IMG/VR virus record: IMGVR_UViG_3300032086_002890
Span: 1 to 20,561 of that record
Length of the DNA stretch: 20,561 bases
Direction: 5' to 3' (one strand)
From: a virus
The notes beneath the pieces were generated by a model. The model searched no databases. It saw only the letters and a program-made list of their open reading frames with translations, and had not been told where the DNA came from. Every line of letters starts with the position of its first letter. The first letter of the stretch is position 1. The position numbers and the translations under genes were made by a program. Positions 1-19,329 of the stretch are shown here, one piece after another.

Positions 1-790
1 CTACATAAACATGATTATCAGACCATTCTGAATCAATAATTTTAAAAGAAGCTTGTTCATTATTTTCTTGTATTTGATTATTAATTTTTTCGATGACACC
101 GGGTGTTTCCAGTGCCTCCTTGCTCATAACGAAATAGTAACACTTTTCTCGGATGCTGTCAAGAGGAAAGTGTAACATCTCTTCTCCATTTTCAGGGTTT
201 ACCATACCAAAGCTAGAGATTCTGTTGACTTCCGATGGCTCTTCTACATTTGTGAATAAACCCTCTGTATTTTTAATGTAATTTGTCATATGAAACATCC
301 CTGCTATTGTACTGGCAACATAGTCTTTTTTCTGTAAGAAGTTGACTTCTGCCTCTTTTAGAACTTCTAGAGCATCATAAAGATATATTTTACTAAACAC
401 CGCTGAGCGGGCTAACTCCTGTAGTATACCACAAGTCATTCGCTCTCTTAACTTTTGTTTGTTAGATAGAAAGTTCTTTTCAGGTCTAACATAGTGAACA
501 GTAATTTTTTTATCTTGTATCCTCTGTAAGATTCTAAGTGTTGCTCCGGTAGTCTTACCACCTCCGAACAAAAACACATGAACATTATTATGCCTCACTT
601 TTTTGCTAATGTCAAGGTTTGTTTTCTCTTCGTATTCTTTGATTGTTTCTTGACTATCAATTAAGATTTGCTCGACATTATTTAATTCTTTTTTAAAGCT
701 AGTATCAATCACCATGATATCATAAGCTTCATGCTGGGCTAACTCAGTGGCGATCTGACTACCACCTGTTCCGATTCCGATTACCTGCAT
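1..790 (-). CDS. FtsZ/tubulin-superfamily protein with degenerate GTPase loops (3' end outside window)
   Basis: The frame is open from the ATG at 788-790 to the left edge, giving 263 residues with no stop. Residues 1-11 (MQVIGIGTGGS) look like the first nucleotide-binding loop of FtsZ/tubulin after a beta strand. Residues 71-83 (HVFLFGGGKTTGA) sit where the tubulin signature GGGTG(T/S)G is expected, with K79 and T80 replacing T and G. The following strand, then R102-P103, resembles the FtsZ segment ending in KPF. Residues 160-195 fit the central helix and T7-loop region, but the acidic NxDxxD motif is not intact (NVEEPSE). Residues 210-263 resemble the FtsZ C-terminal domain. These matches are by eye; the family assignment is inference. 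The ATG overlaps the polymerase stop by 10 bases and has GGAGA upstream, so translation is probably coupled. Possible roles are a phage filament or a non-polymerising virion or assembly factor. It could instead be another Rossmann-fold protein. Confidence 0.7.
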   Translation of the reverse strand, partial: MQVIGIGTGGSQIATELAQHEAYDIMVIDTSFKKELNNVEQILIDSQETIKEYEEKTNLDISKKVRHNNVHVFLFGGGKTTGATLRILQRIQDKKITVHYVRPEKNFLSNKQKLRERMTCGILQELARSAVFSKIYLYDALEVLKEAEVNFLQKKDYVASTIAGMFHMTNYIKNTEGLFTNVEEPSEVNRISSFGMVNPENGEEMLHFPLDSIREKCYYFVMSKEALETPGVIEKINNQIQENNEQASFKIIDSEWSDNHVYV

Positions 791-1971
791 AATTCTTTCA
801 TTTCTCCATAGTTTACACCAGCAGCGATGTTAACCTTAAACTCTCCAAAGTCAGTGTTACCGTAAGTCTCTACCAATTCTTTTAAAAGGTCTCTATCATC
901 CTCGTTGTAATCGATTAAGACTGAATCGTGAATGACTGCTGTAATGTAGCTTTTTCTGAATTTTAGTAGCTCATCTAACTTGATTGCTTGAGTTAAACAT
1001 ACATCTGAAGCTGTACTCTGAATTAGGTAGTTTAGAGCATGAAAATCATCGCTAGGAATCTTACGATCAAAAGGTGTAGTGATGATGCCGTCCTTGTAGT
1101 AGGTTGACAAAATCTTATCTTTATTGTAAAATCTAGACATTAGGTGATCTTCAGAGTTGGGATTGTAGAGCCAAGCAAAAGCCCGTTTCTTCGCTTCTGC
1201 TCGGGTTCCTAGCCCTCTAAAAACATTCTTGATGTTCCACTCGTGGATGTCTTCTTTCGGCTGTTCTACACCATTTAGAGCCTGTAGAACACGAAGTTCA
1301 TTCGCATTGAAGTCTAGCTCTAAGAACCAGTGGTTATGTGGCTTTAGAATCTGACGGAATCTCTTATCAAAAGCTAAGATTGGAAAGCTATTTTTCTGAG
1401 TAGAGAGGCGACCCGTCTTAGACTTGAAGATGTTGTAGCTGATTTTGTCGCTGCTGTTTAAGAACTTTTGAACGGCAACAAAGTCAGTCTTCTTCATAAA
1501 TCGCTGATTCAGTTTACTTTTGTCGATGATCAGCTTTTGACCAGAGATCTTGGTTAGAAGCAAGTTAACTTCTTTTAAGAAAGAATAGTTAGCAGGCTTA
1601 CTAAAGTTTTCAAACACAAACTTTGTAATCTCAGTCTTGTCCTCATAAAAATCTGTGAGGAACTTGTCTGGAACTAGGTCATAGAAGCAGTGGTCGTCTA
1701 AGCTGACCTTAGCCTTACCTAGTGACTTGATAAACGACTTCATCCGTTTGGTGGAGTGCTGCCACCTATGGTGGAGGTGGTCCGGTAGTGGGACATCATC
1801 TATACTATCCACCCCGGCATAGATCTTTGCATAGTCTACAGCACTAGACATAAAGTTAGGAGAGCTATCCCAAGTCTGGGTAAAGCCATGTCCAACATCT
1901 TCTTTGTAGATTTTGCCGTCACTGTAGTAGCCGACACACTCAATCTTGTTATCAAGAACTTGAAAGATCAT
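781..1971 (-). CDS. Compact family-A DNA polymerase lacking exonuclease domain
   Basis: 396 residues. The C-terminal two thirds carry the polymerase-A landmarks in order: TGR at 186-188 (R668 of E. coli Pol I), motif A LDFNANELR at 219-227 with catalytic D220 and E225, the O-helix R257..K261..F265..Y269 (R754, K758, F762, Y766), NYLIQSTASD at 314-323, and motif C IHDS at 347-350 with catalytic D349. The usual HDE of motif C is HDS here. Motif A to motif C spans 129 residues against about 177 in Pol I, so fingers and palm are trimmed. I see no 5'-3' or 3'-5' exonuclease motifs in the first 180 residues. DNA synthesis without proofreading is the likely activity. The ATG lies inside the end of the upstream gene (20-base overlap) with AGCAGG before it. 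A polymerase at the end of a baseplate gene cluster is unusual; it may act late, in repair or gap filling, or on a special template. Confidence 0.88.
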   Translation of the reverse strand: MIFQVLDNKIECVGYYSDGKIYKEDVGHGFTQTWDSSPNFMSSAVDYAKIYAGVDSIDDVPLPDHLHHRWQHSTKRMKSFIKSLGKAKVSLDDHCFYDLVPDKFLTDFYEDKTEITKFVFENFSKPANYSFLKEVNLLLTKISGQKLIIDKSKLNQRFMKKTDFVAVQKFLNSSDKISYNIFKSKTGRLSTQKNSFPILAFDKRFRQILKPHNHWFLELDFNANELRVLQALNGVEQPKEDIHEWNIKNVFRGLGTRAEAKKRAFAWLYNPNSEDHLMSRFYNKDKILSTYYKDGIITTPFDRKIPSDDFHALNYLIQSTASDVCLTQAIKLDELLKFRKSYITAVIHDSVLIDYNEDDRDLLKELVETYGNTDFGEFKVNIAAGVNYGEMKELCR

Positions 1972-3250
1972 CTGTTAAATACCTGCTGTTTTCACCGGTC
2001 CTCTTGTCGAACTGGTCTTGTGCAGACATAGTAACACCATCGTTGGATCTTGTCAAGTTGTTTTGTGCAAGTGGTATCTCACGAAAAGCTGCGGTGCCTA
2101 GATTGTATTTAATGTATTCAAGAGCTTTTCTTGTAGCTAATTGCTCATTTTTTAGTGATTTAACAATTGCAGTAACATTTTTTAAATGGAATGATTGTCT
2201 TTTATTACTTGCCCTTAAATTTAATTCTGCTAATCTAAATTTATAAAAAAGAATTAATTTTTGTAACAAAGGTAAATTTAATTTTTCTGAAGTCGGACTT
2301 TCTCTATTAACAAGTTTATAGCTTCTAGAATTGCAAAGTTCATCAGAGTTAAAAATGCTTTGTTTATATTGTCTGTTGGTCTGATAAAAAGTAGCATAAA
2401 AGCTTTTTAAATAAGTTATAAATTCTTCAAAATACTCATTACCATCATACGAGATGTAAAATTCTCTAAAAATGTCTTCAACAGTGTTTTCTGTTTTGTT
2501 TTGTATTTTTTCTTTAATAAAGGGAAATAGATTATTACTTCGTATATTTGCGACTATTCTCCATGGAATATTTCTATCAATCTTAAATCCATATTTTCTG
2601 CACAACTCTTGATATATTGGAAAGTTAGGATCATTAATAAACGAAGCAGCTAATTTATCATCTCCGTACTCACCAGAGTATATTTCAATAGCCAATCCTG
2701 TATTTAAAACAGTCGACTTTCCAGATTCACCATATGCTAATCTAGTAAAAGCTTTTCCATTTTGTCTTATGTATTCAAATAATATATTTGTAAAATCTTC
2801 AAAATTTTTAATTTTATCACTCTGCTCTAATCTAACTAAGACATTAGAATAAAAGTCCTCATATACAGATTGAATATAGTTGTTATATCCAATAATGGGG
2901 CTTTCCCATGCTCTGGTTGGTTCAAGTGTACTTGAAAAGAATCTCGTTGGACCAGCTTCTGCATTTAATCTAAAAATTGTTTTATAATGCTCTCTCATCT
3001 TTCTAAAAGCATTTGCAACAAAATTCAAAACTGCTAATTGTTTTTTATCGCCCTTCTGTGAAATATAAAGTAATTTTGATTCATTTGGGAAAACTGGTGT
3101 GCCTTCTTCATTTACTCTGCCATATAAAGGTAAATTGTTCCATAAATCAAACTGATCGATATCGGTTGGATAAAACTCTTCGTAGGTCTCTCTACTTTTG
3201 TATAACTCTTTTGTATTAGAGTTTTTATTTGCAAAAGGAGTATTAGCCAT
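1952..3250 (-). CDS. Unrecognised 432-aa protein downstream of baseplate hub, probable virion protein
   Basis: I do not recognise this family. The protein is soluble-looking and mostly helical, rich in aromatic, Asn and Lys residues, with no signal peptide or membrane segment. Its ATG directly follows the TAA of the hub gene, and an AGGAG Shine-Dalgarno lies in the last codons of that gene, so the two are probably made together. That suggests a baseplate or virion-associated role, by position only. Residues 172-179 (AYGESGKS) match the loose P-loop pattern, but no Walker B or NTPase fold is evident, so I do not call an ATPase. The C-terminus (about 400-432) is polar and probably disordered. 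Its last 20 bases overlap the DNA polymerase start. The reading frame is intact, and the DNA is noticeably AT-rich, like the hub gene upstream. Confidence 0.75.
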   Translation of the reverse strand: MANTPFANKNSNTKELYKSRETYEEFYPTDIDQFDLWNNLPLYGRVNEEGTPVFPNESKLLYISQKGDKKQLAVLNFVANAFRKMREHYKTIFRLNAEAGPTRFFSSTLEPTRAWESPIIGYNNYIQSVYEDFYSNVLVRLEQSDKIKNFEDFTNILFEYIRQNGKAFTRLAYGESGKSTVLNTGLAIEIYSGEYGDDKLAASFINDPNFPIYQELCRKYGFKIDRNIPWRIVANIRSNNLFPFIKEKIQNKTENTVEDIFREFYISYDGNEYFEEFITYLKSFYATFYQTNRQYKQSIFNSDELCNSRSYKLVNRESPTSEKLNLPLLQKLILFYKFRLAELNLRASNKRQSFHLKNVTAIVKSLKNEQLATRKALEYIKYNLGTAAFREIPLAQNNLTRSNDGVTMSAQDQFDKRTGENSRYLTDDLSSS

Positions 3251-6001
3251 TTAGAAGTTCTCCTTAATATCTTTAAATGTGTCTTTTTGCACACCCGCTG
3301 CTTCCTCTACTTCAGCCCTTGAAATTGATGCATTTGGACCAATTCCGTACTTAGCTAGAGTTTCCGCATCTAATCTTAAGATCTCTTCGAAGTAGTTTGC
3401 TAATGACAAGCCGACTCTTGTTGGTGGGATATCGTCAGTCTTGTTCTGCCCATCTTTTACAGACTCGCCGCCCTTAGCCTTTGCTAGCCTTGGGTGCCAA
3501 AACCAAGTTGCTGTTAAGTTTGTTGTATAATTTCCTAAACTAATTGAATCATTTACTCTTTGAATTGCATAATATCCAGAGATACCAGGGTCAAAATCAT
3601 CGTTTTCAATGCCTAATAGGTTAGATGGAATGCCAAAAAAGCCCCCCTTGAAAAATACATTGTTGCCAATTGTTTCAACATTCGCAGAATAATGATATCT
3701 TAATAAGTTTGTTGCTGTATCTCTAAGATTTTCAGACCAAAATGCAAGTCTCATACCTGCAAAATCGTTTGCATTAAAACTAATATTTTTCAACAAGCCT
3801 TCATCAGCGCCAATCTTAATATGTGGGCAGCCAAACTGAATGTCATTGTCCTCTCTAAAATTAGTATTTGCTACTTTTCTTTTTAAGTAGGCACTACCAA
3901 TTGGTGAGCTTGGATTTCTTACCAAAGAGTAGTGAACAAAAGTTCTCACATCTGTTCTAGTTCTAGTTTCTGATGTTCTTTTAACTCTACCTGATAACTG
4001 CCTGAGTGCTAGTTTGTTTGTCGTATGATAAACATCTCTAAACAATTGTCTTGTTTGAGATCCAGGTTGCATTTCAGTTAGATAGTTTGTTCTTTGGATT
4101 GATCCAATTCTTGTTTTACCAAAAGTATCTATTGTATTGTCTTCTAGGATAGAAGGCACCAGCTTCTTTACAACATCTTCAACAAACTCACCTAAAGTAA
4201 AAATTAATCTACCTTTCTTGGTGTAGTGTTCGTAAAACCATTTTTGAAAATAAGTTAACTCAACTAAAATATCGCCCATGTTTATAACATACTCTTTGCC
4301 TAGAGATCTAGCATTAATATTTCCTAGGCTGGTAAAGTGTGCAATTTTTCTATCGTCTTCATTAAGTTGTCTATATGCTGCTGCAATTAAAGCTCTAACT
4401 GGAAAGAATACTATGTCTCCAAATTTCTTATCTCCAGCGGAAGTTGACTTAAGACCCTTTGGAGCATTAAAAGAAGAGCCAGCAAGATTATCTATTAGTG
4501 TCTCTTTTTGTTTAGCATTCACACCCTCTATAGAACTTAAAATAATATTATCTTTAAAATCTGCAACAGAAAAACTGGTTGGGATCTCATATAGAAGAAT
4601 GTCCCTTAAAGCACCTTTTGTATTCCTGTCTTTGACAACCAAATTTAAAAATGCCTTCATGGAGAAGTCTCTAGTGTTATTTGTATTAGAGGCTGTTGAT
4701 TTTGTAGCAAAGTTTATCTTAAAAACATCCATGTGTGATATCATGCTGTCAAGGAAGTTGGGCTTTACATACAAAGATAACTTGTCTTTTAAACTATTGA
4801 TTTCAATATTTAATGTTTTTAATTGTTTCTTTTCTATATTAACTTTCTTTTCTAATTTTAGAATTTGATTGGTCTGCTGAGACTGTCCTCTAATCCTAGC
4901 AGCACCTTTTCTTTTCTTTATCACTAATCTAGATTCTTTTATTGATTTTTCTAATTCTTTTCTTTTCTTTCTTTTTTCTGTATAAGATTGAATAAATTTT
5001 TTAATTTGTGGGTTTTCAGTTGAAAGGGCATTAATTTCTGGAATGTTTTCAGTTATTGAAATATCACTTGTTTCTTTTAATAAATCAAAATCTTGTTTTG
5101 ATGTATAATCTACAGTGAGTCTTACAGAACCATTTTGCTCAATATTAAAATTATGCCTGTAATAATTTAAAATAAATCTTTTTCTTTCTCTTCTTAAAAT
5201 TTCTTCTTGAATTCCAGGTGGAATAATTGTAGGATCTGTAAACTTTGTGTTTAATGAGTAGCCGTACTCTAATACTATTTGTTCTGTCTCTTGAGAAAGA
5301 GGAGCCATAACCTTTAAAAAACTAAAAGGAGTTGGCAAGTCTCTGTTTGGAAAATTTAGCTCTCTTGTTAGGATTCCTAAGTTTTGAAAATAAAAACTTA
5401 TATTTGCTTTAACATTTAAGAAGTTACCGAACTGTGGGAATTCTCTTTGTGTTGTGACTGATTCAATACCACAACCATCACCTCTTGCAAACTTAGAGCT
5501 TAAAATAGGCATGAATTCTTCTTCAGTGGTAAAAGAGGGAAATGGTATAACAAACTCTTTCCAATCCTCTCCTTTGTTTTTTCGATATCTGTAAACTAAT
5601 TTAATGAAAGGCTGCAAGACAGAAAGTTCTGATGTGCCAATCTTGGTCATAAATTTTACATACTCATTATACTTCTTTTGTTCAACAGGGTCAACTTCTT
5701 TGTTTGCTGAGTAAGATTCTTCAAATTCTTGATAGAGGTTTGGGTTAAAAGATACAATGTGCTCTTTACCCTTCTCTCTTACAACTTTTAGAATATTATG
5801 ATCATCTTCTGGCATGTTTTTACACAATTGAAGAGGAAAAGTATCATCGTACAAAACCTTGGCTATGCCAGATCTATTTGCTAAATTTGTACCTCTATTA
5901 ATCTGAGGAGCAAATATATCAGATATAAACTGCTGCTTATTAAGACCACCTTTTGACAGTGGGAAAAACAAATTTAATGAGGAATCAGAAGAGTTGCTCA
6001 T
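3251..6001 (-). CDS. Large baseplate hub-like structural protein (gp27-type candidate)
   Basis: About 916 residues from the ATG at 5999-6001. That start lies two bases after the stop of the LysM gene and has GGA seven bases upstream; a TTG at 6013 would add four residues and is less likely. The N-terminal 300 residues are mixed alpha/beta. A highly charged Lys/Glu-rich coiled coil occupies about residues 340-410. The last 150 residues include a Gly/Asn/Phe-rich stretch ending in ISGYYAIQRVNDSISLGNY and then a beta strand, a pattern I associate with the closing domain of baseplate hub proteins such as T4 gp27. Its place after the gp48/54- and gp53-like genes supports a hub or central baseplate role. 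The exact T4 equivalent is uncertain. T4 gp27 is only about 390 residues, so this would be a greatly enlarged form with added N-terminal and coiled-coil parts. Confidence 0.7.
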   Translation of the reverse strand: MSNSSDSSLNLFFPLSKGGLNKQQFISDIFAPQINRGTNLANRSGIAKVLYDDTFPLQLCKNMPEDDHNILKVVREKGKEHIVSFNPNLYQEFEESYSANKEVDPVEQKKYNEYVKFMTKIGTSELSVLQPFIKLVYRYRKNKGEDWKEFVIPFPSFTTEEEFMPILSSKFARGDGCGIESVTTQREFPQFGNFLNVKANISFYFQNLGILTRELNFPNRDLPTPFSFLKVMAPLSQETEQIVLEYGYSLNTKFTDPTIIPPGIQEEILRRERKRFILNYYRHNFNIEQNGSVRLTVDYTSKQDFDLLKETSDISITENIPEINALSTENPQIKKFIQSYTEKRKKRKELEKSIKESRLVIKKRKGAARIRGQSQQTNQILKLEKKVNIEKKQLKTLNIEINSLKDKLSLYVKPNFLDSMISHMDVFKINFATKSTASNTNNTRDFSMKAFLNLVVKDRNTKGALRDILLYEIPTSFSVADFKDNIILSSIEGVNAKQKETLIDNLAGSSFNAPKGLKSTSAGDKKFGDIVFFPVRALIAAAYRQLNEDDRKIAHFTSLGNINARSLGKEYVINMGDILVELTYFQKWFYEHYTKKGRLIFTLGEFVEDVVKKLVPSILEDNTIDTFGKTRIGSIQRTNYLTEMQPGSQTRQLFRDVYHTTNKLALRQLSGRVKRTSETRTRTDVRTFVHYSLVRNPSSPIGSAYLKRKVANTNFREDNDIQFGCPHIKIGADEGLLKNISFNANDFAGMRLAFWSENLRDTATNLLRYHYSANVETIGNNVFFKGGFFGIPSNLLGIENDDFDPGISGYYAIQRVNDSISLGNYTTNLTATWFWHPRLAKAKGGESVKDGQNKTDDIPPTRVGLSLANYFEEILRLDAETLAKYGIGPNASISRAEVEEAAGVQKDTFKDIKENF

Positions 6002-6002
6002 A

Positions 6003-6347
6003 TTATAATCCAAAAATACTTAATGCTTCATCTAAGAACAGGGGTACCTGTACTACTTCTCCAAGTTCTACATGCTGTTCAGTTGGCTTTCCATTGAACC
6101 AAGCGATTACCCACCATAATTCTGGTGAGCCATAATACTCACTTGCTAATTTGTAAAATCTATCACCTCTTTTCCAAACAACAGATGTTGTTTCTATATC
6201 ATTATACTCGACCTGATTTGGATATTTTAGTAATGTAACTGGTAATTGTCTAATACCTATTTCGCCGTATCTTTTTTTAAATGCCTTTCGATAGCCTTCG
6301 GTAGCATTTATAAATTGTAGTGAGTTTCTGTATCTTGATATAGCCAT
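6003..6347 (-). CDS. LysM-domain baseplate wedge protein, gp53-like
   Basis: 114 residues. Residues 55-103 form a recognisable LysM-type module: W58-x-x-GDRFYKLASEYYG, then PELWWVIAWFN, then GEVVQVP. This is the arrangement seen in T4 gp53 and in the small LysM baseplate proteins of many contractile-tail phages, where the module joins wedge to hub rather than acting as an enzyme. Residues 1-54 form the attached N-terminal arm. The gene starts one base after the stop of the upstream gp48/54-like gene and ends just before the hub start, so the three are tightly packed and probably coupled. The Shine-Dalgarno is weak (TTGGTAAAA), in line with coupling. The module is confidently seen; the T4 gene equivalence rests on it and on position. 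Confidence 0.8.
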   Translation of the reverse strand: MAISRYRNSLQFINATEGYRKAFKKRYGEIGIRQLPVTLLKYPNQVEYNDIETTSVVWKRGDRFYKLASEYYGSPELWWVIAWFNGKPTEQHVELGEVVQVPLFLDEALSIFGL

Positions 6348-11040: not shown

Positions 11041-13935
11041 TTAATCATCAAATGATGCTCCAGTGTTGGTGATGATGAAGTCCAAAGCAATGTATTCAAT
11101 TGCTCTTGCTGGCTTGATGAACAACTTGGCATACAAGATGTTTTGGTCAATCAAGTCAGGTGTTGTTGTGGTTTCATCTAGAACCAACTTGTAGTCGGTT
11201 AAACCAAAGCGAGTCTTAACATCGTTCAAGAATGGGATAGCCTGATTCTTGAAGTTGTTCCAGGTGTCTGGCACATTTGGCTCAAATAGAACACCGTTAG
11301 AGATTCTAGAAATGCCTCTCTTGAGGAATACTAGAAGCCTGCGAACATTAATTCTATCTAAAGCAGATCGCTCAACTTGCAAGGTTTTTTGACCGAAGAT
11401 GACAACACCCTCATTTGGGAATGTAGCGATTGGGTTAATACCAGCCTCATAGAGATCATCTCTGTCGTCCTTGAAGAGTTTAAGGGCTGTAGAGACGACT
11501 GGGAGTCCAGACACACCAGAGGATAGCCCACCGCGGTTAAAGCCAGCAGGAGCGAACCATGGAGCTTGTACACGGTCTGTGTAGGACATTGCACCTAGCG
11601 CCGCCACAGTTGGTGGTACCCAAAGATCAACACTGTTAATATTATCACGAATTTTTACCCATGGAAAGTAAGTTGCAGCATAACTTGAATTTGTAGCTAC
11701 TGATTTTCTGTTAGTAATGTATGTGCTCACATTACCATTTGTCTCACTATTGCTTGTGTATTGGTAATCTGCGGGTGGAACATACCCACCAACATACTCT
11801 ACAACAGCAAGAGCATCTGCTCTCTCGGCAGTGTTATCAACTAGCTTTGTAACCAAAGATGTGTTTGTCATACCGGGCACAGCAATAACATTGTATGAAA
11901 CCTCTTCTGGATTCTTTACAGTGTTGATTGCTCTTTCGAAAGTAAAGTACTCTGAACTAGTTTCTTTATTACTTGGTGTTACTAAACCGGGGGCTAATGG
12001 GTCTGACTTTGTGATATCAAAGCCATCAGTACCACCGAAGAATAGTGTTGTTAGACCGGGTGCACCCGTTGCTTGCTCTAACACCTCATCGACACCGCCC
12101 TTCGCTGATAATGAAGCACCGGTTTGTCGTGCATCATCGGCATAAACCAAAATAGATGAGGTGCCGGCAATTGCACTGCTTGCTCCATTGTACTTAACAT
12201 TATCTAATGTTGTAATAAAAGAAAAATCTAAGAAGCTGCTTGACTGGTAGCCAAGAACATCTTTTGGTCTAATTCTGCTAATGTCAACAACATCCTCTCT
12301 AACTAGATTTGAACTATCGTCGCGAACGGAGACACCAAAGTTGGCTTGTCTAAAAGCACCAACAGTTGCTAAACTTGCCTGACTTCTTGTCACTGGGGCT
12401 GGGAAGATACAAACAAGGCTAGCCGAAGCTTGATTTCTGACGGTAGCATTAGCTTGTCCGTTTGCCGGCATCTCATTACCAATCAGTACAAAATCGGCGC
12501 CGCCATCTGGGGTGCTTAAAGATCCACTTACACCGGCAGCAAAAGCGACAGGTTTATACCTTGTGGGTCCAGTAACACCGTAAGGAACTAAATCAGATGT
12601 AAAACCGTTGGTGTATTTAGCATTAACCTCTACTCTACAATATTTTGATTGATTTTCATATTCACCCTTCTCAATGTTTCTATTTGTAGATTCGTCGTAT
12701 TCGACATATTTTGTACCAATTTTTCTTAATAGGTAATCATCAGAATTTTTATTTAATGTACAGTCTAAAAATGATTCAACCACTTTCTTACTAGTATCAT
12801 TGTCTCTAAGTTCTCTTAAAACAACATTAAATCTGTAATAAGGATCTACATCGGATAAAACAGGTGGTCTAATGTTTTCAATGCTTACTTTAAGATTCTC
12901 TTGAATCCACTGTCCATCATTCAATCCAACAAGTCTAAAAAGCTTTTCAACTCTTCCAGAATTAATATTAGCTGTCATATCCTTGCTAAAAGAAGCTGTG
13001 TCATTTGAAAGATCTTGACTAAGAATCCAGCCAGACTTGGGAACTGATGCATCTTGATCTAAAGCACCTTTTCTAAAATCTGAGCCGCCTTTGCTAGCGG
13101 CACCCAAACCAACAATCATACCAAACATTGAGCCAGCAGTATTAACATTCATTGATCCAGTTAAACTATTTTCAAATGTTTCACCTAAGAAGTATCCAAC
13201 CGGATTGTGAGCAGATCCCCTACCAATTAGAGTCGGATCTGTATTAAAGACTTTTCTAATAAAATTACTATTGCCCTTTTGAAGACTAAATTCCAATTGA
13301 GCAGTTGGCAGCGGGCTGTCACTGTCGCCAGTCCCGTTAAACCTAACATTAAATTTACCACTAGTGTCGCTCTCAAAAACTGCGGAGGTTTGATCAGCAA
13401 TGACAGTGCCATCATGTGCCAATGTGCCTGTAAGCTCTATAGATCCGGTGGATAAATACCATATAGCGGCAAGAGAGCCTGATATTGTCGCACTAGATCC
13501 AGATGTCCATACCATTAAGCCATAAGCACCGCCTCGACCACCGGGTCCTACATCATCAGCGATATTACCAACTTTCCAGCCAGCTTCACCGCCAGTTTGT
13601 TTATCATCAGATTCAACACCCAAAGTTCTAACAAATGTTAAAGCCTCACCGTTTCTTAACCAAGACTGAGCCGCATAAGTTGCATACATTGGAGAAGTGT
13701 AATTCCCCTCTCTCCAAACATCACCGCCGGCGCCGCCGTCGACGGGCTCCCCAAAGGTTGAAACAAAGTCTGAAAAGCTTCTCACCTCAACCGGGGTAAA
13801 CGCGGGACCTCTTCTCGCTCTACCAATTACACAAGCACCAATTGCTGGTTCATCTGCTGGAATTTGGGAACGATCGATTTCCTCGATTCGAATACCGGGT
13901 GAAATAAATCTAAAGTTTTTTGCTGAAACTGCCAT
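11041..13935 (-). CDS. Tail sheath protein (gp18-like, very long)
   Basis: 964 residues against 659 for T4 gp18. The N-terminus is typical of phage sheaths: FRFISPGIRIEEIDRSQIP, IGACVIGRARRGPAFTPVEV and FSDFVSTFGEP. The conserved C-terminal half follows from about residue 630: FTFERAINTVKNP, VIAVPGMTN, the APWFAPAGFNRGGL loop, INPIATFPNEGVVIFGQKT, and the closing strands RINVRRLLVFLKRGISR and FIKPARAIEYIALDF used in inter-subunit mesh contacts. The enlarged part lies between about residues 130 and 620, rich in Ser, Gly, Thr and Asp, and is probably one or more outward-facing domains. It would wrap the tube and contract at infection. AGGGAG precedes the ATG. The frame is intact. Confidence 0.93.
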   Translation of the reverse strand: MAVSAKNFRFISPGIRIEEIDRSQIPADEPAIGACVIGRARRGPAFTPVEVRSFSDFVSTFGEPVDGGAGGDVWREGNYTSPMYATYAAQSWLRNGEALTFVRTLGVESDDKQTGGEAGWKVGNIADDVGPGGRGGAYGLMVWTSGSSATISGSLAAIWYLSTGSIELTGTLAHDGTVIADQTSAVFESDTSGKFNVRFNGTGDSDSPLPTAQLEFSLQKGNSNFIRKVFNTDPTLIGRGSAHNPVGYFLGETFENSLTGSMNVNTAGSMFGMIVGLGAASKGGSDFRKGALDQDASVPKSGWILSQDLSNDTASFSKDMTANINSGRVEKLFRLVGLNDGQWIQENLKVSIENIRPPVLSDVDPYYRFNVVLRELRDNDTSKKVVESFLDCTLNKNSDDYLLRKIGTKYVEYDESTNRNIEKGEYENQSKYCRVEVNAKYTNGFTSDLVPYGVTGPTRYKPVAFAAGVSGSLSTPDGGADFVLIGNEMPANGQANATVRNQASASLVCIFPAPVTRSQASLATVGAFRQANFGVSVRDDSSNLVREDVVDISRIRPKDVLGYQSSSFLDFSFITTLDNVKYNGASSAIAGTSSILVYADDARQTGASLSAKGGVDEVLEQATGAPGLTTLFFGGTDGFDITKSDPLAPGLVTPSNKETSSEYFTFERAINTVKNPEEVSYNVIAVPGMTNTSLVTKLVDNTAERADALAVVEYVGGYVPPADYQYTSNSETNGNVSTYITNRKSVATNSSYAATYFPWVKIRDNINSVDLWVPPTVAALGAMSYTDRVQAPWFAPAGFNRGGLSSGVSGLPVVSTALKLFKDDRDDLYEAGINPIATFPNEGVVIFGQKTLQVERSALDRINVRRLLVFLKRGISRISNGVLFEPNVPDTWNNFKNQAIPFLNDVKTRFGLTDYKLVLDETTTTPDLIDQNILYAKLFIKPARAIEYIALDFIITNTGASFDD

Positions 13936-17502: not shown

Positions 17503-19329
17503 TTAACCAATTAGATCTTGGCAAACAACTAGTCCGTACATGTCTGGACGAACCATCTTCTTGGCGTAGCGAGTCATGACGCCCTTACGGGGTACGAAGT
17601 CCTCGACACCGAAAATGGTTGGTGTGACCTGTAGTGGGACATATGGAGCATAGACATAGCCACTCTCTAGGAAGCTGTTGCCACGACGACCAACTAGCAC
17701 GACATTGCGTGGGAAGTATGGATCGACATAAACATCAAACTTCTTGCTGAGAGCACCTACCTTAACGGCACCAATCTGACCACCCTTTAGCTCCTCATGG
17801 TTTACGGTAGCACGGAAACCAGCAGTGAACTCAAGTAGGTTGGCAATTTCTGGGGAGCAAACTACGAAGTTAGCACCACCACGAAGTGTCTTTCTGTGGA
17901 TGTTAGCTGAGACATCATTGATGGTCTCGGCTAGTGTCTCATACCACTCAGAAACGGTACCTGTGAAGTCAGGAGCAGCAGTTGTAGCACCAACCTGAGC
18001 ACCTGTGTCACGGTTAACAAATTTACCGGGACGACGGCTCCAGTATTTTGTACCAGCAGTAGCACCTCTAACTAGGTCGTTTAAGATCTCTTGATCGATC
18101 TCTAGAGCAACCTGCTCAGAAAGAATGCTTGTAAGCTCAACCTCGGCATCGAGGTTGTGGTAAGCATTGAGATCTTGAGCTAGCTCTGGGGACCACTTAG
18201 CCTTAAGCTTCTTAGTGTTGGCTGTAACAGCGATTGACTCAACCTTGATGTCAATCTCTGGCATAATGTCGACATTATTACCGTTAAAGTTACCACCATC
18301 ATCGTCAGAACCTTCAAGTCCCCATGGTGCGAGACCACGAACGGAACCAATGCCATCGCCTGCCTCAAATCTGTCATTTCTGCTAAACTTGAAGACGGGA
18401 TCGGAACCTGCAATTTCAATTGTTGTTCCTGTTGGTGCAGTAACATAGAGAGAAACATAACCATCAGAAATTGATGAAGATACAAGATTACCATCAGTGT
18501 TGCGGAATCCTCTCTCGGACAAACGACGAACGACGGTTGCACCACCAAGTGCATCTGGGTTAGCACCGTTGAAGATTTCAGCACTGGTTAAGTTATCTAA
18601 ATTGATCTGGTTCATGTTTGCTTCAGATAATTTGACAACAATGACACCAACTAAATCTGTTTGAGTACCAGCGAGAATGTCGGCATCGTAACGAATTGCC
18701 TTCTTCTGAGCATCACTTAAAGCAGATACAGCAGTACCAGTGGTTGTTAGAGCAGTTTCACTACCAGAAGCACCAACTTCATCAGAAACTGTATTGTCGG
18801 TCATGGTAGTAGGGGTAGCAGTGGTAACCTCTGGAGTAGCCAAAGCACCTGTTGGTGAGGCATAACCATTCTGTAAGTTGTAAAATCCGCCACCTTCTTC
18901 TGTAATGTCGGTTACACCAGTCTGGATGCCTGAACCTGTAACTCCACCGCCGTACACAGAATCATTCGCATCAATACCGGCACGGGAGTTGGAGTAGGTA
19001 AAATCTAAGAAGAAGATTAGACCTGATGGTAGGCTCATTGGCTGAACTGAGACTAGCTCGTTAGCGATGAGACCACCGAATACACGGCGAACGATTGGGA
19101 ATGCGACGGCAGCGAAGCCCTCAACATCACCAGCAGCCATGGATGAAGCCTCACGGAGAAGCTCCTTTGCTTGGTTTTCTAAGAGTACAGCCATGCTGTT
19201 CTTAGTTCTTTCGTTATCTAGACCTTCTAGAAGACCAGTCTTCTCCCACTTGTTGAGAAGAGCAGCACCTTCGGCTGAGAGGTCACGAGCAACGATGTCT
19301 TTTGTTAAACTTTCTACGATAGTTGACAT
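17503..19329 (-). CDS. Major capsid protein (gp23-like, HK97 fold)
   Basis: 608 residues against 521 for T4 gp23. Clear T4-type landmarks: LLNKWEKTGLLEGL at 24-37, FPIVRRVFGGLIANELVSVQ at 77-96, SGLIFFLDF, SPELAQDLNAYHNLDAEVEL at 380-399, NFVVCSPEIANLLE, KKFDVYVDPY at 529-538, SGYVYAPYVPLQ at 556-567 and GVMTRYAKKMVRPD near the end. Residues 57-61 read LLRE/A and align with the gp21 protease site of T4 gp23 (LTE/A), so the first 60 residues are probably removed on maturation. A Thr/Ser/Gly-rich stretch (about 160-205) and a Gly/Asp/Asn segment (340-355) account for part of the extra length and probably form a surface domain. A strong AAAGGAGG Shine-Dalgarno lies before the ATG, and a terminator follows the gene. 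Confidence 0.95.
   Translation of the reverse strand: MSTIVESLTKDIVARDLSAEGAALLNKWEKTGLLEGLDNERTKNSMAVLLENQAKELLREASSMAAGDVEGFAAVAFPIVRRVFGGLIANELVSVQPMSLPSGLIFFLDFTYSNSRAGIDANDSVYGGGVTGSGIQTGVTDITEEGGGFYNLQNGYASPTGALATPEVTTATPTTMTDNTVSDEVGASGSETALTTTGTAVSALSDAQKKAIRYDADILAGTQTDLVGVIVVKLSEANMNQINLDNLTSAEIFNGANPDALGGATVVRRLSERGFRNTDGNLVSSSISDGYVSLYVTAPTGTTIEIAGSDPVFKFSRNDRFEAGDGIGSVRGLAPWGLEGSDDDGGNFNGNNVDIMPEIDIKVESIAVTANTKKLKAKWSPELAQDLNAYHNLDAEVELTSILSEQVALEIDQEILNDLVRGATAGTKYWSRRPGKFVNRDTGAQVGATTAAPDFTGTVSEWYETLAETINDVSANIHRKTLRGGANFVVCSPEIANLLEFTAGFRATVNHEELKGGQIGAVKVGALSKKFDVYVDPYFPRNVVLVGRRGNSFLESGYVYAPYVPLQVTPTIFGVEDFVPRKGVMTRYAKKMVRPDMYGLVVCQDLIG

Follow-up and report, generated by a model that had tools for sequence, protein, structure and literature searches.

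We identify a family of phage proteins that is predicted to adopt the full two-domain tubulin/FtsZ fold, that has lost both the T7/H8 element triggering GTP hydrolysis and the G-box consensus throughout, and whose gene is joined to the phage replication cassette. The member considered here lies at the left edge of the window, by which we mean the whole 20,561-nucleotide stretch of viral DNA that was analysed; the source record for this genome consists of these 20,561 bases only. The gene occupies positions 2–790 on the minus strand (ATG at 790) and is cut by the window edge after the N-terminal 263 of its 279 codons, the remainder lying beyond the record. The complete gene, encoding 279 aa, is present in near-identical contigs (L002:711-1550, L003:392-1231 and L004:6001-6840). 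A search of IMG/VR returned at least 594 candidate loci of this degenerate family, and the length of its members is tightly kept, nearly all having 264–306 aa. An earlier note, made without database searches, had read the open frame at 1–790 as an FtsZ/tubulin-like protein with a degenerate GTP signature; the open reading frame is real and this main reading is supported.

Membership in the tubulin/FtsZ superfamily rests mainly on the predicted fold, sequence-level homology to FtsZ being weak. The AlphaFold2 model of the window-clade protein, computed from a 49-row alignment without templates, has a pLDDT of 91.6 and a pTM of 0.90, and that of the main-clade member L080, also without templates, has a pLDDT of 93.6 and a pTM of 0.91. 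Both models cover two domains, with a Rossmann-type nucleotide domain, the core helix H7 and a C-terminal domain. In a Foldseek comparison with the PDB the top 50 matches all belong to the tubulin superfamily, the best being FtsZ (4.4e-13). With VIA-align, the window-clade model matches TubZ with a Z of 24.6 (3.0 Å over 273 residues), CetZ with a Z of 24.5 and FtsZ with a Z of 23.3; the best structural match of the L080 model is CetZ, with a Z of 25.7. Structural matches also include PhuZ of phage Noxifer and a tubulin-like protein of Edwardsiella phage pEt-SU. The earlier proposal that the C-terminal half follows the FtsZ second domain thus held, as the two-domain fold is predicted and the PDB comparison agrees. 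The same note had called for structure prediction of the full gene and a Foldseek search, and had named two outcomes that would refute it, namely a model lacking the two-domain tubulin fold and a clear assignment to some other Rossmann-type family; the prediction and search were run, a tubulin fold was found and neither of these outcomes was encountered.

Standard annotation is nearly blind to this family. The window protein scores 18.9 bits against the Pfam Tubulin model (PF00091), for which the curated cut-off is 33, and the similarity consists of two collinear stretches that are both below threshold. Profile alignment of the degenerate family with FtsZ by hhalign is collinear through H7 and gives an E-value of 1e-3 (probability 22%); a broader FtsZ set gives a weaker result (E 0.012–0.016, probability 3–4%) and the global mode of hhalign yielded no useful alignment. 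A single-sequence search of the PDB found no sequence relative of the protein, two different family members used as queries against 50,697 phage records returned no match, and PHROGs gave only weak matches.

At this level a competing reading is an ordinary NAD(P)-binding Rossmann protein of the saccharopine-dehydrogenase or TrkA_N/KtrA type. The best single-sequence Pfam match of the window protein is Sacchrp_dh_NADP (21.7 bits), TrkA_N is weakly matched by 18 of 49 members, and a PDB profile search finds KtrA at an E-value of 1.2e-4. Against this, all of these matches fall under the curated cut-offs where one exists and are limited to approximately residues 1–95, the first Rossmann units, whereas the fold match to tubulin/FtsZ spans the whole chain, C-terminal domain included, with more than 250 residues aligned at Z of about 21 or more. 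Given that the top 50 fold matches are without exception from the tubulin superfamily, we rejected the NAD(P)-binding identity and regard it as all but ruled out.

To what extent the nucleotide site survives was assessed in an alignment of 137 unique full-length members. The T1-type glycine-rich loop is retained: in the window protein it reads GIGTGGS (residues 5–11; 758–778, minus strand), lies between a strand at residues 2–6 and a helix at 7–17 in the model, and is well conserved in the family (G5 in 100%, G7 in 97% and G10 in 91% of members). The T4/G-box position is occupied by GGGKTTG (residues 76–82; 545–565, minus strand), between a strand at 69–75 and a helix at 79–90 in the model. 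Both motifs are exactly those picked out in the earlier note, and the degeneracy of the second proves to be family-wide. None of the 137 members has the canonical G-box [GSA]G[GA]TG[SAT]G; position 4 is Thr in only 8 of them and position 5 is Gly in none. The particular box GGGKTTG is exclusive to the window clade.

Losses extend beyond H7. In the element order of FtsZ, the T7 loop and helix H8 lie between H7 and S7. DSSP assignment of the window-clade model shows instead H7 (residues 151–173), a loop and then a strand at 191–197, with no H8; the loop at residues 175–190 (221–268, minus strand) replaces the T7 loop and H8, and the L080 model is likewise without a helix between H7 and S7. The T7 catalytic motif NxDxxD is found in none of the 137 members. 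The earlier description of the T7 loop as eroded was therefore correct but understated, since the T7-loop/H8 region is missing altogether. By its fold this is a branch of the tubulin/FtsZ superfamily, but by its G-box and T7/H8 motifs it is not FtsZ, TubZ or PhuZ, and we treat it as an unnamed degenerate branch.

Residues that would contact the guanine base show a different pattern. In the T6/start-of-H7 region (residues 140–159; 314–373, minus strand), family members usually have Asn140, an aromatic residue at 155 and Asn159, which we take to be the guanine-contacting positions (the T6 Asn, and the H7 aromatic followed by an Asn four residues later); this correspondence was made by profile alignment and secondary-structure order, not by superposition. 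The triad is complete in 111 of the 137 members. It has gone in six separate lineages of a FastTree tree built without those columns, and one of these is the window clade (13 members, full support), in which the whole clade is affected, the window protein having Ala140, Lys155 and Ala159. From these patterns, and without binding data, we infer that most members probably still bind a guanine nucleotide but do not hydrolyze it and that the window clade has probably lost guanine-nucleotide binding.

The placement of the degenerate family is helped by a second phage FtsZ/tubulin family with intact motifs, which links it to FtsZ. This second family (L317:1887-2981 and L318:1805-2845, both minus strand; relatives L321–L400) comprises proteins of 346–364 aa with a GGGGGTGS box, NTTEKD, and FDSKDL in the T7 region. 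We confirmed 107 loci, on marine phage contigs of up to about 280 kb; there was no match in the phages collection. It aligns with FtsZ at the profile level with high significance (97%, E 9.5e-11), and with the degenerate family at an E-value of 1.2e-4 (probability 55%), collinear from T1 through H7. The two families are found in the same kind of marine phage genomes, and the degenerate gene is present in 5 of 19 genomes that have the second family (conversely, 2 of 9 genomes with the degenerate gene have the second), but the locus of the second family differs in lying near an amidase-domain gene.

The genomic setting of the degenerate gene is nearly invariant. Directly upstream in the window is a family A DNA polymerase gene (781–1971, minus strand; 396 aa; PF00476, 52–60 bits), which overlaps the start of the tubulin-like gene by 10 nt and is followed by tail genes. 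Beyond the left window edge, as seen in L002, lie genes for a gp32-type SSB, RecA/UvsX, a 5'-3' exonuclease, DnaB helicase and ribonucleotide reductase, the last identified by reading its sequence and the others by Pfam. We gathered 211 loci with the gene by querying with the polymerase and the SSB and also with the tubulin-like protein; loci selected by either of the two neighbors are biased towards synteny, and the others were selected by the protein. Where both neighbors survive, 165 of 167 loci have the polymerase upstream and the SSB downstream and the remaining 2 have the polymerase upstream and uvsX downstream. Where one neighbor was not found, a contig end is nearby in the examples listed. 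At 123 unique loci with both neighbors the three genes are always co-directional (123/123), and at 92 of these the tubulin-like gene overlaps the polymerase stop, commonly by 4, 10 or 13 nt. The suggestion in the earlier note that the gene is coupled to T4-type virion genes needs correcting: the gene belongs with the replication cassette, the larger part of which is past the left window edge, and the note had seen only the tail genes on the other side. Its proposal that the fold serves a structural or regulatory purpose is still the reading we favor, with DNA replication the likeliest setting.

Several features of the neighborhood were recorded in passing. The polymerase is of a mini family A type, about 390–400 aa in most relatives, without a recognized exonuclease domain. 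Next to it, two genes at 1952–3250 and 3251–6013 encode large proteins of 432 and 920 aa with no Pfam or confident PHROG match; with a gp53-like baseplate gene on one side and polA on the other, they keep their order, and the tail cluster therefore abuts the replication cluster. One SSB locus without polymerase or tubulin-like gene (L079) is a UViG contig in which bacterial response-regulator and sigma-factor genes are joined to phage SSB/UvsX genes; with bacterial genes upstream it is probably chimeric and was set aside.

Rather than decaying, the gene is held under purifying selection: within the window clade its median dN/dS is 0.14, compared with 0.11 for the SSB and 0.06 for the polymerase. 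This value, the number of candidate loci and the extent of the structural match to TubZ together place the open reading frame beyond chance. Median pairwise identity at the same loci is 35% for the tubulin-like protein, 45% for the polymerase and 55% for the SSB.

By similarity ranking of gp23, without a tree, the carriers are Far-T4 phages, uncultured and mostly marine. The best gp23 matches are LR756508, Flavobacterium phage immuto and Mel-JY01, with RM378 slightly lower, and all four rank ahead of the first cyanophage row. Marine Far-T4 phages have been linked to Bacteroidetes/Flavobacteriales (PMC7198788, PMC13037479). The longest contigs with the degenerate gene belong to T4-type phages and are about 110–200 kb. 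Whole-record searches with the family profile showed that the gene is absent from Mel-JY01, immuto, LysYB2, LR756508 and RM378, which have related cassettes or capsids. Mel-JY01, immuto and LysYB2 are cultured phages with the same cassette; in a search among Far-T4/SPO1-type phages for an ancestral gene with intact motifs at this site, their intervening genes gave no tubulin match; the intervening genes of LR756508 were merely listed by eye. Neither tubulin nor FtsZ is mentioned in the main text of the Far-T4 papers searched. Two virion proteins of the window are unusually long, a tail sheath of 964 aa (11041–13935) and a gp23 of 608 aa (17503–19329) to which known gp23 aligns in two pieces with less than 60% covered; the long sheath and the two-piece alignment suggest large insertions.

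What might such a protein do? The predicted fold, the motif loss, the strict linkage to polymerase and SSB and the purifying selection all support its being a superfamily member without a GTPase/protofilament cycle that serves the phage replisome as an accessory or scaffold subunit, an inference made without biochemistry that we consider as likely to be right as wrong. Translational coupling to the exonuclease-less mini-PolA would give roughly matched amounts of the two proteins, and the tubulin-like protein would bind PolA and/or the gp32-type SSB and so help to keep the replisome together or in place. In most members a guanine nucleotide may still be bound, but not hydrolyzed, and act as a ligand or switch; the window clade, with nucleotide binding probably lost, would have kept a purely structural role. 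Against this reading, direct evidence for contact with PolA or SSB is lacking, the conserved gene order could stem from co-expression without any physical interaction, and the protein evolves faster than either neighbor. Moreover, its absence from Mel-JY01, immuto, LysYB2 and LR756508 means that some replisomes of this kind do without it, and GTP-dependent behavior is not excluded because most members keep the guanine-contacting residues. A bolder version, in which the protein is a stoichiometric non-GTPase subunit and fixed partner of mini-PolA and SSB in widespread uncultured phages, we put forward more tentatively, as something we would not quite expect to hold.

A filament, cytomotive or scaffolding, that is built through an interface other than T7/H8 and positions or segregates replicating phage DNA in the manner of TubZ or PhuZ remains possible. 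The nearest solved folds (TubZ, CetZ and FtsZ) are filament formers, a 2010 paper stated that every superfamily member characterized by then forms filaments (PMC2875224), the triad is retained by most relatives, and the canonical FtsZ-like protein encoded in some of the same genomes could co-assemble. Opposed to it are the absence of the G-box consensus and of NxDxxD from every member and of the T7/H8 region from the models: in TubZ the catalytic loop enters the GTP pocket of the neighboring subunit and hydrolysis drives filament dynamics (PMC5322520). The neighbors, moreover, are a polymerase and an SSB and not a partition gene, an observation that comes from the adjoining genes and not from a targeted search for TubR or a centromere.

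We consider it unlikely that the protein is an antagonist of host cell division, in which a shortened copy of FtsZ, with its top face kept and its bottom face absent, would cap or poison the FtsZ filaments of the host. The architecture of the N-terminal nucleotide domain is indeed kept and the T7/H8 region, on the opposite longitudinal face, is gone, and small phage proteins directed against FtsZ are known. However, host-takeover genes usually vary in position, whereas this gene is fixed between the polymerase and SSB/UvsX at every locus with both flanks, and even in phages that have diverged widely its product keeps the same fold and length. Improbable too is a non-polymerizing protein that senses or carries guanine nucleotides and thereby adjusts replication, perhaps to the GTP/dGTP pools, the window clade being secondarily ligand-free. 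Retention of the triad in 111 of 137 members despite an altered G-box, and the ribonucleotide reductase downstream in the same cassette, would fit, but the window clade and five further lineages have no triad and yet keep the same gene order, which means that the function common to all members cannot be nucleotide binding.

As of 2010, the characterized tubulin-superfamily proteins were filament-forming GTPases (PMC2875224). The degenerate family, which is common in environmental phage contigs, would directly test whether a GTPase/filament cycle is indispensable to the working of the fold, and the bolder form of the replisome reading, if true, would mean that the superfamily is also used outside filament-based work. 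The gradient from triad-keeping to triad-less members, together with the second, canonical FtsZ-like gene in some of these phages, offers a natural series for the repurposing of a cytoskeletal GTPase.

Among known systems, TubZ, a partition tubulin of plasmids and phages, is the best structural match to the window-clade model and is also phage- or plasmid-encoded. Solved TubZ chains, however, have about 380–414 aa compared with 279 aa here, and TubZ keeps its GTPase motifs and C-tail (PMC5322520), whereas the degenerate protein is without the G-box consensus and T7/H8. TubZ sits with TubR; the degenerate gene adjoins PolA and SSB. PhuZ, the tubulin of nucleus-forming jumbo phages, shares with the degenerate protein a phage-encoded tubulin fold, but the gene neighborhood of phiKZ PhuZ is unlike that of the degenerate gene and hhalign with phiKZ PhuZ detects no usable sequence similarity (probability 0.6%, 31 columns). 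FtsZ and CetZ have the two-domain fold in common with the degenerate protein, in which the H8/H9 helices are missing and the C-terminal tail is very short. A precedent for a divergent branch of the superfamily is FtsZl1 (Makarova and Koonin 2010, PMC2875224), which is doubtful as a filament former and in which T6-H7 and later elements are unrecognizable. FtsZl1 is cellular and found in operons with vWA-domain proteins, whereas the family described here is viral, lies in a replication operon and has a recognizable T6-H7.
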